DNA of 64,000 nt from Deferribacterales bacterium Deferri_01 (GTDB taxonomy: Bacteria > Chrysiogenota > Deferribacteres > Deferribacterales > Geovibrionaceae), in assembly GCA_001603805.1 (NCBI GenBank), contig LUZY01000013.1:412723-476722 (forward strand). The letters run 5' to 3'. A program made the translations under genes and the position numbers. This document shows, in pieces, positions 27,793 through 31,454 of the stretch (position 1 is the first letter of the stretch; every line of letters starts with the position of its first letter). Below the pieces are notes generated by a model, which was given only the letters and a program-made list of their open reading frames with translations, searched no databases and was not told the origin of the DNA.

Positions 27793-28020
27793 TTAAAAGG
27801 ATTGAACTTCTTTTACTTCAGGAATCTGGTCTTTCAGCCTGCCTTCAACTGCATGTTTCAGTGTCATAGTGCTGAAAGGGCAGCTTCCGCATGCGCCGGT
27901 AAGCTGTACTTTAACTATCCCGTCTTCTGTAACACCGAGAAGCTCAATGTCTCCTCCGTCTGCCTGAAGTGCGGGTCTTACCTGCTCAAGGACTGCTTCA
28001 ACTCTTTCTTTTAAGCTCAT
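27793..28020 (-). CDS. NifU C-terminal-domain (Nfu-type) protein
   Basis: A 75-residue stand-alone Nfu domain with the CxxC cluster ligand GACGSCPFSTMTLKHAVEGRL split as GACGSCPFST and LKHAVEGRL. Such proteins carry a [4Fe-4S] cluster at a dimer interface and pass it to target enzymes. It ends the operon with the NifS-like and NifU-like genes, and its ATG overlaps the NifU stop by one base. Length is right for the short bacterial form. Confidence 0.92.
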   Translation of the reverse strand: MSLKERVEAVLEQVRPALQADGGDIELLGVTEDGIVKVQLTGACGSCPFSTMTLKHAVEGRLKDQIPEVKEVQSF

Positions 28021-28466
28021 TAATTTCCTCCGGTTGCGGCACTTTTTATTTCTTCTTTCATTTTCTGAACAATAGCAGGATCTTCGCCTTTTCTGATATA
28101 GAAGTCCTTAAGGGCTTCCTCAATCGCTTCCTCCGCCATTACGGAGCAGTGAATCTTCGCAGGGGGAAGACCGCCGAGGGCGTCAACAATCGCCTGATTT
28201 GTAAGAGCGAGTATCTCTTCCACTCTTTTACCTTTTATAAGCTCAGTAGCCATTGAGCTGGAAGCGATAGCCGCTCCGCAGCCGAATGTTTTAAATTTAA
28301 CGTCTTTAACTATTCCTGCATCGTCTATGTCGAGGAAAATCTTCATAACATCGCCGCAGGCGGGGTTTCCCACTTCTCCGACAGCGTTAGCACCGTCTAT
28401 TTCCCCCATATTGCGGGGATTCATAAAGTGGTCCATAACTTTTTCGCTGTATGGTCCTTTTGCCAT
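28020..28466 (-). CDS. NifU/IscU-type Fe-S scaffold protein
   Basis: A 148-residue scaffold on which iron-sulfur clusters are assembled. The three ligand cysteines lie in GNPACGDVMKIFL, KFKTFGCGAAIASSS and KIHCSVMAEEAI, and the conserved Asp follows the first. The N-terminus (YSEKVMDHFMNPRNMGEID) matches anaerobe NifU_N proteins. The stretch after about 125 is longer than in IscU but carries no further domain. It lies nine bases after the NifS-like gene; the natural partner would be a cysteine desulfurase, but see the unusual NifS-like neighbour. Confidence 0.94.
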   Translation of the reverse strand: MAKGPYSEKVMDHFMNPRNMGEIDGANAVGEVGNPACGDVMKIFLDIDDAGIVKDVKFKTFGCGAAIASSSMATELIKGKRVEEILALTNQAIVDALGGLPPAKIHCSVMAEEAIEEALKDFYIRKGEDPAIVQKMKEEIKSAATGGN

Positions 28467-28475
28467 TGTAACCTC

Positions 28476-29660
28476 CTAGTTTCCTCTGTTGTAAGCGGGA
28501 GACATTTCGCAAAGTCTTGTAACGATACCGGGCAGTTCCTCAAGCACTTTGTCAACATCCTCGTCAGTTGTATAACGAGAAAGTGAGAAAGTAATTGATC
28601 CTGCGCAAACATCGTCGGGAACTCCCACCGCCGTGAGAACGGGAGAAGCCTGAAGGTCTTCCTCGTCTTCGGCAAGGATGTTTGACGAGCATGCAGAGCC
28701 GCTCGCAGCATATATTCCTTTCAGAGCAAGCCACATAAGCAGCGACTCACCCTCTATGAACTCTATCCAGAAACTTACGTGTCCGGGAAGCCGGCGATCA
28801 GGATGCCCCGTAAAATGCAAAAAGTCAAACATATTTGCAAGCCCTTCCCAGAGCCGTTTGCCGAGTCTTTGCATCTCTGCGGAGTATATGTGCATTTCCT
28901 CTTTGGCTATTTTAGCCGCTTCGCCCATGCCCACAATAGCCGCAACATTTTCAGATCCGCTTCTGTAGCCGAACTCCTGATGTCCGCCCTGCATAAGAGA
29001 GGCAACTTTCGTTCCTTTTCTTATGTAAAGAGCAGCCGCACCTCGGGGTCCGTAAAAATTCTGTGACGCAAGGGAAAGAAGATCGCAGTTAAGTTTGTTT
29101 ACGTCGATCTCTATGTGCCCTGCTCCGTCAACAGCGTCTATATGATAAAGAACGCCTTTTTCCTTACAAATCCTGCCTATTTCCTCATTATACTGAACAG
29201 TGCCTATTTCGGGGTTGCCAAGCATCACTGAAACAAGTGCGGTGTCCGGTCTGATCGCCTTTTTGAGATCTTCAAGGTTAATAAGACCATTGTCCGCCAC
29301 TCTGAGCTTGGTTATTTCATAACCATCGTTCATAAAGGATATAAGCGGGTTCTGCACTGAAAAATGCTCAATTTCGCTTATGATAACGTGTTTCTTTTTG
29401 CAGTCATTATGCTTAAGCACTCCTTTGACCGCAAGGTTGTTTGACTCCGTACCGCAGGAGGTGAAAATCACTTCCTCTTCCTCCGCCCCTATAAGCGCCG
29501 CAACATTCTTCCTTGCTTCCTGTACGGCTTCAAATGATTCTCTGCCGAGGGGATAGAAATGTGCGCTGGGGTTACCGTAATGCTCCGTAATGAACGGAAG
29601 CATTTTATCAACCACTCTGCTGTCGGGCTTAGTTCCCGCAACATTGTCTAAAAAAGCCAT
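28476..29660 (-). CDS. NifS/IscS-like protein without the PLP-binding lysine
   Basis: A 394-residue class V aminotransferase-fold protein that aligns along its whole length with cysteine desulfurases. Kept features are FTSCGTESNNLAVKG, EH at 98-99, EIGTVQ, YHIDA, GYRSGSENVA, and the sulfur-carrying cysteine C324 in ASGSACSS. Two cofactor residues are changed. The histidine-lysine pair that normally reads SxHKxYGPKG is SQNFYGPRG, so the Schiff-base lysine is Asn201. The DAxQ glutamine is D178. I checked these codons on the minus strand around 29051-29075. The protein probably cannot act as a normal desulfurase; it may bind sulfur on C324 or use another sulfur source. It is in an operon with scaffold and Nfu genes. 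Confidence 0.85.
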   Translation of the reverse strand: MAFLDNVAGTKPDSRVVDKMLPFITEHYGNPSAHFYPLGRESFEAVQEARKNVAALIGAEEEEVIFTSCGTESNNLAVKGVLKHNDCKKKHVIISEIEHFSVQNPLISFMNDGYEITKLRVADNGLINLEDLKKAIRPDTALVSVMLGNPEIGTVQYNEEIGRICKEKGVLYHIDAVDGAGHIEIDVNKLNCDLLSLASQNFYGPRGAAALYIRKGTKVASLMQGGHQEFGYRSGSENVAAIVGMGEAAKIAKEEMHIYSAEMQRLGKRLWEGLANMFDFLHFTGHPDRRLPGHVSFWIEFIEGESLLMWLALKGIYAASGSACSSNILAEDEEDLQASPVLTAVGVPDDVCAGSITFSLSRYTTDEDVDKVLEELPGIVTRLCEMSPAYNRGN

Positions 29661-29661
29661 T

Positions 29662-30483
29662 CTATTCTCCTGTCAGTTCTTTCAGATACCTGATTATCTG
29701 CTCTGTCAGAACTTTTATATAATCGCCCGTGAAACTTACCATGTTTCCGGACGGATGCTTTATAACTCCGATGCCGCCTTGCTCCATCGCTTCTTCCAGA
29801 TTAAATGAAGCATATTCATAAAAAATTCCGTCCTCATCACCTGTAAACTCTGTTCCGTTTTCCATGAAAAAATCCGCAAGAAAAACGGTGGATACAGGTA
29901 TGATTCTGAAATTTAGGGACATTCCCGTAACTTCTTCAAGCCTTTTTTTGTAACCGCTCATTATGTTTGAGCTGTCGTCCCCGCCAAGGAGAACATTAAA
30001 GGCGATTCTTTCCTCAAAAACCTTTGACCTGTCACGCCCGAAGGAGAAAAGATTTCTCGTCTGGCTGATAAGGTCGTCTATGGCATTTTTGCCGAAAAGA
30101 GCAGCAGGCATCATAAGGCTGCCCCTTACCTTTGTTTTATCACCCTTGAAACGGTCAGTTATATACTCAACAGGTTCTTTGACCTCATAGAGATCATCAT
30201 AGCCAGAGAAAATTCCTGTACAGTCGATAAGGGAAGCATCCAGCTTTCTTATTTCTTCTGCATGGATACCGGGGTCGCCAAGAACAATTGCAATTTCCTC
30301 ATCGCCAAGGTTTTTTATATTTTTTGCCTCGTAAGCGGGTTTTTCCGCAGCTATGGCGGGCAGAAAATCCTCCGAGGAATAGATGTTTACTTCGAGAAGA
30401 GGAAGTTCCTCTTCTATTCTGCCCAAAAGCTCACTGAGCAAAAGGGAATCGTTAGCATATACAGCAGCTTTCATGCCTTTCAT
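29662..30483 (-). CDS. Usg/aspartate-semialdehyde-dehydrogenase-like protein, probably non-catalytic
   Basis: A 273-residue protein one base upstream of the NifS-like gene. Its middle and end resemble the dimerisation half of Asd and Usg proteins: FEERIAFNVLLG, then an amphipathic helix, then RIIPVSTVFLADFF in place of the usual VRVPVxxGHS. The C-terminus (SFTGDYIKVLTEQIIRYLKEL) also fits. The glycine-rich dinucleotide loop is absent from the N-terminus, and where Asd has its catalytic NCxT the protein reads GSLMMPA, so it should be inactive. The assignment is from remembered family patterns and moderate. It heads the Fe-S assembly transcript, which may indicate a structural or regulatory role there. 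Confidence 0.5.
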   Translation of the reverse strand: MKGMKAAVYANDSLLLSELLGRIEEELPLLEVNIYSSEDFLPAIAAEKPAYEAKNIKNLGDEEIAIVLGDPGIHAEEIRKLDASLIDCTGIFSGYDDLYEVKEPVEYITDRFKGDKTKVRGSLMMPAALFGKNAIDDLISQTRNLFSFGRDRSKVFEERIAFNVLLGGDDSSNIMSGYKKRLEEVTGMSLNFRIIPVSTVFLADFFMENGTEFTGDEDGIFYEYASFNLEEAMEQGGIGVIKHPSGNMVSFTGDYIKVLTEQIIRYLKELTGE

Positions 30484-30542: not shown

Positions 30543-31454
30543 TTAATTCTGCTTCTGATAAATAAGTTTACCTGACGCATTATATGAAAATTTCAGATTT
30601 TTAACCGGTTTTCTGTACTCACCAAAACCTCTGTAACGTGTGGTTTTGTCATGCACCTCAGCTGCGGCTGCATTTCCGAGATTCAGCACAAAATAGTCCT
30701 TAAACTCCACAGTTCTTTCTATTCCTTTTTCTGCTATGAAATCGTAAACAGTTCCGTTGTCTATTTCAATATTCACCCAGCAAACATCATTAAAGCTCAG
30801 TACAACAGCCTTCATGCCGGGTGCAGGAGAAGGCACACTCGCAGGGAGAGGCCGAGGCTGCGCTTCAGCGGCAGTTTTAACTGTTTCTGTTTTTTCCGCT
30901 GGTTTACTTTCAGCCTGCGCTTCGGGGCTTTCAACAACAGCAGGTGCTTCTGCGGTGGCGTTATCCACAGGTTCTGCCTGCGGAATCACGCTCTTAGGTT
31001 CGGAATCACCGGATAAGGGTGCGGGTTCGGCTATGCTTATTTTTGTTTCTTTCCTGTCCATTGCGTTGTTGTTCTTCATGGACATAAAGAAGTAAACACC
31101 TGCTATAACAAGTATCAGAACAATAATAAGAGCTGCAACAAAACCCACAGGACTTTTTCTGTCTATGGGCTCATGGGTTACAGGAGATGCCACATAGTGA
31201 ATCTCACGGTTAAAGGATTCTTTGGTACACTCTTCATCAAAAAGAGCGTCCACCTGCTCCGGTTCAAGCTTAAGAAAATTAGCATAGGTTTTCACAAAGT
31301 TTCTGGCATGCACATAGCTGGGAAGCTTGCTGAATTCGCCGGCTTCAAGGCGCAGGAGTATCTCCTCGCTTATTCTGGTCTTGTCGGTAATTGTGTCGAA
31401 ATCTATGTGTTTTTTTATTCTTTCTGTTTTGAGAAATTCACCGAGTTTACTCAT
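30543..31454 (-). CDS. rodZ: RodZ-like cytoskeletal membrane protein
   Basis: A 303-residue protein with a cytosolic Cro/CI-type helix-turn-helix (about 4-70: LGEFLKTERIKKHIDFDTI, then ISEEILLRLEAGEFSKLPS). A single membrane helix follows (about 102-125), then a Pro/Ala/Glu-rich periplasmic linker and a DUF4115 beta domain (about 215-303). This is the RodZ order. RodZ binds MreB and links it to wall synthesis; the mreB gene is at the left end of this window. The gene overlaps the TPR lipoprotein gene by eight bases. Confidence 0.88.
   Translation of the reverse strand: MSKLGEFLKTERIKKHIDFDTITDKTRISEEILLRLEAGEFSKLPSYVHARNFVKTYANFLKLEPEQVDALFDEECTKESFNREIHYVASPVTHEPIDRKSPVGFVAALIIVLILVIAGVYFFMSMKNNNAMDRKETKISIAEPAPLSGDSEPKSVIPQAEPVDNATAEAPAVVESPEAQAESKPAEKTETVKTAAEAQPRPLPASVPSPAPGMKAVVLSFNDVCWVNIEIDNGTVYDFIAEKGIERTVEFKDYFVLNLGNAAAAEVHDKTTRYRGFGEYRKPVKNLKFSYNASGKLIYQKQN

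Follow-up and report, generated by a model that had tools for sequence, protein, structure and literature searches.

A lysine-less IscS homologue encoded beside the sole IscU-type scaffold detected in most of the Deferribacterales

Lysine-less IscS proteins and the Deferribacterales homologue

In the textbook scheme of Fe-S cluster assembly, IscS passes a persulfide to IscU within one complex. The IscS of A. fulgidus has Asp in place of the PLP lysine, shows no desulfurase activity and provides a cysteine ligand to the [2Fe-2S] cluster on IscU (PMC7585200; PMC5176006), and IscS1 of Methanosarcina acetivorans, in which the catalytic lysine is absent, may act in the same way (PMC7585200). The latter protein, which we liken to the one presented here through its published description, is archaeal and is encoded in a genome with other IscSU copies and SufBC alongside. 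The A. fulgidus genome holds two IscS copies, both lysine-less, and no other type-I IscS was found among the strong matches. Yamanaka et al. reportedly isolated A. fulgidus IscS with PMP in 2013. Lysine-less IscS working with IscU is already known, though from archaea only in the searchable literature.

The stretch of DNA analysed here, 64,000 nucleotides of a Deferribacterales genome (hereafter the window), encodes a 394-aa homologue of IscS/NifS in an intact open reading frame with an ATG start (28476..29660; this and all other window features described below lie on the reverse strand). The product, which we call pseudo-IscS, matches the Pfam family Aminotran_5 (E 7.5e-73). Its best NCBIfam model is TIGR03402 (NifS), with 432.6 bits against a cut-off of 530.75, a threshold that is likewise not reached by the genome's canonical IscS (474.8 bits). 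Sequence and alignments place Asn201 (codon AAT, 29058..29060) at the PLP-lysine site, Lys206 of E. coli IscS, and the surrounding motif reads SQNFYGPRG versus SGHKIYGPKG in the E. coli protein (1p3w). A preliminary description of the locus had named this substitution, together with Asp178 at the DAxQ glutamine and the retention of His99 and of the Cys324 loop SGSACSS, and all of these hold. It had also counted a C-terminal Arg among the retained residues, which proved mistaken: the equivalent of E. coli Arg354 ('IRFS'), a presumed substrate-carboxylate residue, is Thr357 ('ITFS'; 28590..28592), and the Arg that was meant is most likely that of 'SRYTT' rather than the conserved active-site Arg. 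Two further substitutions are absent from that description, namely Pro150 (29211..29213) at the presumed substrate-carboxylate position held by Asn155 in E. coli IscS and Asn150 in DndA (PMC3343029), and Gln200, which directly precedes Asn201 and occupies the position of E. coli His205. Asp178 (29127..29129) aligns with E. coli Gln183, a site that holds Ala in most relatives.

These positions bear on activity. DndA Asn150, Gln178 and Arg353 are stringently conserved and presumed to recognise the substrate carboxylate (PMC3343029), and in E. coli IscS both K206A and Q183E abolish activity, with K206A retaining some PLP (PMC9978102). Among the residues expected of a desulfurase, pseudo-IscS has the mobile-loop cysteine, and both the PLP lysine and the Asn/Gln/Arg carboxylate set are absent. 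Judged from its sequence, the protein has neither the Schiff base nor the presumed substrate site, a deficit reaching beyond the lysine alone. Normal desulfuration, which the preliminary description had not expected, is unlikely, since the lysine and the carboxylate-site residues are both lost. Thr71, His99, Asp175 and Ser236 are kept along with the SGSACSS loop; their established roles in the IscS fold are binding of the cofactor phosphate (Thr71 and, from the partner subunit, Ser236), of the ring (His99) and of the pyridine N (Asp175). PLP or PMP would probably still be bound in the pocket, though not as a Schiff base. A different cofactor, another suggestion of the preliminary description, is conceivable, with those pocket residues kept that secure PLP/PMP when the lysine is missing.

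The mobile-loop cysteine, Cys324 (28689..28691), corresponds to Cys328 of E. coli IscS and Cys321 of A. fulgidus IscS and lies in an extended loop (NILAEDEEDLQAS, 28644..28682). The distance from the cysteine to the VL motif is 16 residues, compared with 9 in nearly all other IscS proteins, and the loop, seven residues longer, includes an acidic stretch. An AF2 model of pseudo-IscS (pLDDT 82.5) falls below 50 at residues 322-333 and 335-351, the Cys-loop region, and so does not give the geometry of Cys324. In a structure search the model fitted A. fulgidus IscS and normal IscS/NFS1 structures about equally; as it fits lysine-less and normal structures alike, the fold is silent on activity.

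Pseudo-IscS most closely recalls A. fulgidus IscS2 (PDB 4EB5, 4EB7, 4HVK, 4R5F), in which Lys, Gln and Arg are likewise lost, His and the Cys loop are kept, and the gene adjoins IscU. As far as primary structure and gene order can tell, it has the A. fulgidus-type residue pattern together with IscU adjacency. The two are about 41% identical over a structural alignment. However, the A. fulgidus protein belongs to an archaeal Asp branch, has Asp199, keeps Asn155 and has no Cys-loop insert, whereas pseudo-IscS has Asn201, Pro150 and the insert; because the insert is missing from A. fulgidus IscS, the function of pseudo-IscS may differ. The canonical IscS of the window genome (G000:C8, in a cysE-iscR-iscS locus) shares fold and family with pseudo-IscS at about 39% identity, but keeps Lys, Gln, Asn and Arg and, unlike pseudo-IscS, is not located beside IscU.

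Conservation in the order and gene neighbourhood

An orthologue search covering the window genome and 39 relatives of the same order (40 genomes) recovered pseudo-IscS in 37 genomes, the window genome included, with sequences that are 58-95% identical to the window protein and in some cases partial. All 37 orthologues have Asn at the lysine site, and Gln-Asn is visible in 36, so the residue first noticed in a single sequence is common to related genomes. Pairwise dN/dS values within a genus were 0.056, 0.077 and 0.063 for pseudo-IscS, 0.055 and 0.051 for canonical IscS, and 0.011 for IscU. Pseudo-IscS is under strong purifying selection, like normal IscS, and the loss of the lysine has become fixed across almost the entire order, with related forms in Zixiibacteriota and many archaea. 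Pseudo-IscS is missing from one genus (G021 and G032), where its position is taken by a Lys-bearing IscS adjoining a different IscU. The whole pseudo-IscS and IscU pair has apparently been replaced there, as would be expected if the two proteins work together. IscR is encoded on the opposite strand at both replacement loci (L162 1946-3500 and L167 3500-5213). In a further genome (G034, 76% complete) IscU is retained, with no pseudo-IscS within 0.5 kb upstream before the contig ends.

IscU lies directly downstream of pseudo-IscS in the gene strings examined. In the window this IscU/NifU_N scaffold gene (28020..28466), identified by profile search, is the only PF01592 gene of the genome, and its stop is overlapped by the start of a gene for a 75-aa Nfu-like protein with a CGSCP motif (27793..28020). 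Both genes are intact and the operon is without decay, in agreement with the preliminary description. Upstream are a conserved gene of 29662..30483, delimited by synteny and alignment, and a RodZ-like gene with HTH_25 and RodZ_C domains (30543..31454), found by domain search and synteny. The string coaX, (TPR), rodZ-like gene, 29662..30483 gene, pseudo-IscS, IscU and Nfu runs throughout the order, with local losses. The 29662..30483 gene has no Pfam or NCBIfam family match. Its AF2 model has a predicted aspartate-semialdehyde-dehydrogenase-like fold (Foldseek against 2r00, E 1e-12, 14% identity), and no cysteine is invariant among 12 orthologues; the modelled product is perhaps a second catalytically dead enzyme of the operon.

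Scaffold genes are few across the order. A single full-length PF01592 match was found in 39 of the 40 genomes (four of them with an extra marginal second match) and none in one incomplete genome, and the SufB/SufD core is absent from the window genome and from 38 of the 40 genomes in total. The IscU beside pseudo-IscS is the sole IscU/SUF-type scaffold detected in most of the order. A SUFBD-core gene occurs only in G015 and G022 (L069 and L070), two genomes of the same genus in which pseudo-IscS is kept. HscB, a marker for a complete ISC system, is absent from the window genome and gave one marginal match among 21, a weak result, as the model fires in only 1 of 14 control genomes.

Normal desulfurases are encoded alongside. 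A search for a second, normal enzyme elsewhere in the window genome, as proposed in the preliminary description, yielded two type-I IscS genes, the cysE-iscR-iscS copy described above and one in an iscR-iscS-mnmA locus, as well as a SufS-like gene. The latter (L001 373-2721) adjoins genes for YeeE/YedE-like membrane proteins, in a genome without SufB/D. Canonical IscS proteins from 14 relatives keep both Lys and Arg (14/14).

The wider lysine-less family and its branches

Further lysine-less proteins were collected through a contig scan and searches of related phyla, and among the matches listed the lysine site holds Asp, Asn, Thr, Gln, Glu or Ser. We compared 99 type-I proteins, which were gathered by similarity and hence are no random sample; within this set Lys and the Arg354 equivalent are lost together (51/51) or kept together (48/48). 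Of the 51 lysine-less proteins, 50 have lost Gln183, and the Asn155 equivalent is often lost as well. All 51 retain the mobile-loop Cys, His99 and Thr71, 50 retain Asp175, and the cross-subunit phosphate residue is retained as Ser/Thr236. Two further positions follow the same division: Ser101 is present in 51/51 lysine-less versus 2/48 Lys-bearing proteins, and Asn74 in 50/51 versus 8/48. The coupling of these residue losses, together with the preserved Cys loop, points to a defined function rather than drift.

A few sequences met along the way deserve mention. In-frame stops in some archaeal matches proved to be C-terminal stops overrun by the alignment or to lie outside the re-aligned match. 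Two archaeal IscS proteins (L084 and L115) have Lys and Arg and no Gln183 equivalent (ACIxNG), and two tandem IscU-like matches follow them. IscS-like matches within frames of about 740-780 aa in Zixiibacteriota and another phylum (G109:C59, G101:C73, G098:C26 and G276:C4) are possible IscS fusions.

In a quick tree, built with the trait columns removed, Asn proteins from Deferribacterales and Zixiibacteriota fall together with an SH-aLRT of 99, apart from a group made up of Asp proteins from Archaeoglobi, other archaea and a further bacterial phylum. The 16-residue spacing from Cys to VL is found in 25/25 proteins of the Asn branch, versus 9 residues in 73/74 of the others (a 7-residue insert), and Arg is changed to Thr in most Asn-branch proteins. 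A tree that holds the lysine-less proteins together, apart from Lys-bearing IscS, is 1.18 log units worse (AU p 0.48), a difference compatible with a single origin of the lysine loss as well as with several. The Zixiibacteriota proteins (e.g. L173, L176 and L181) share with pseudo-IscS the changes of Lys to Asn and Arg to Thr, the 16-residue spacing and about 44-52% identity, but they keep His before Asn (SAHN), occur in 12 of 60 sampled genomes and are not always encoded beside IscU. Since these Asn forms still have the His, the sequences suggest that in the Asn branch Lys was probably lost before His. The Zixiibacteriota loci L173-L184 show intermediate-looking active sites, with Asn for Lys next to a retained His (SAHN) or with Thr for Lys (SAQT), all with the Cys-loop insert.

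We did not find this IscS/IscU trait described for Deferribacterota in the searchable literature, though work on MIS/SMS may touch on it. As far as that literature shows, three elements are new: a bacterial branch of Asn proteins that share a Cys-loop insert, the fixation of a lysine-less IscS in nearly all of an order beside its sole scaffold, and the finding that the residue losses are exactly coupled.

A candidate role for pseudo-IscS beside IscU

The best-supported description of pseudo-IscS is that of a scaffold partner which would offer Cys324 either as a cluster ligand or as a sulfur relay, and its sequence fits either. On balance, we favour a non-desulfurase IscS-fold partner of the sole IscU, in which Cys324 would act as a transient cluster ligand and sulfur would come from elsewhere. 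Pseudo-IscS would form an IscS-like dimer that binds IscU, with PLP or PMP probably retained in its pocket but not as a Schiff base. By analogy with A. fulgidus IscS, the mobile Cys324 loop would then reach into the assembly site of IscU, where Cys324 would transiently ligate the nascent [2Fe-2S] cluster, and the sulfur may be supplied in trans by the normal IscS of the cysE-iscR-iscS locus or as free sulfide. The view of Cys324 as the likely functional remnant, put forward in the preliminary description, is upheld by this comparison; its further suggestions of scaffold binding or sulfur relay are plausible.

In a relay, Cys324 would take up persulfide from a normal IscS, with polysulfide or a rhodanese as alternative donors, and pass it to IscU, making pseudo-IscS a SufE/SufU-like transpersulfurase on an IscS fold. 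The invariant Cys loop, lengthened by seven residues and with its acidic stretch, would suit such a task, and potential donors exist: the window genome encodes Lys- and Arg-bearing IscS, and each of the 14 relatives read has a canonical IscS with Lys. The presence of normal IscS in these relatives leaves room for a relay, yet A. fulgidus, whose only strong type-I matches are its two lysine-less copies, indicates that the family can work without such a donor, and the relay has no known docking partner. For this reason we prefer the ligand model and consider the relay rather unlikely.

The co-occurrence of pseudo-IscS and normal IscS in the genomes read could also reflect a regulatory heterodimer of the two, with residues lent across the dimer interface and pseudo-IscS adding an IscU docking site, in the manner in which dead subunits serve within the serine palmitoyltransferase heterodimer. 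In fold-type-I enzymes the active sites do sit where the two subunits meet, and the phosphate residue contributed by the partner subunit is conserved as Ser/Thr236. However, A. fulgidus IscS crystallises as (IscS-IscU)2, with no normal type-I partner among the strong matches in its genome, and we hold such pairing to be improbable. If PLP or PMP acted on a different substrate without the lysine, or if PMP had a redox or structural role, this would account for the retention of Thr71 and His99 (51/51) and Asp175 (50/51) in proteins that have lost Lys, Gln, Arg and, in many cases, Asn. ColD and E1 are examples of PMP enzymes that work without the lysine, but these have His at the lysine site whereas Asn is found here, and the operon gives no clue to a substrate, which makes such a role very unlikely. 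Chance, assembly error, frameshift or gene decay, in favour of which nothing was found, is ruled out by the 37 Asn orthologues, dN/dS values of 0.06-0.08 and the intact operon.

As a non-desulfurase partner of IscU, pseudo-IscS probably takes part in general Fe-S assembly rather than in a side pathway, because the IscU that it would partner is the sole scaffold, and cluster assembly in the order probably departs from the textbook scheme. More tentatively, nearly the whole order might build its clusters on one IscU assisted by a lysine-less subunit, which would contribute a Cys ligand and might use bound PMP, the sulfur supply being uncoupled from the scaffold complex and possibly met by sulfide. 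The coupled loss of Lys, Arg and Gln offers a sequence rule for spotting mis-annotated 'cysteine desulfurases'. The order has cultured members, Denitrovibrio and Mucispirillum, so that the role of a non-desulfurase IscS is testable in bacteria. Collectively, the family suggests that mobilising sulfur and partnering the scaffold, both functions of IscS, have been split in nature.
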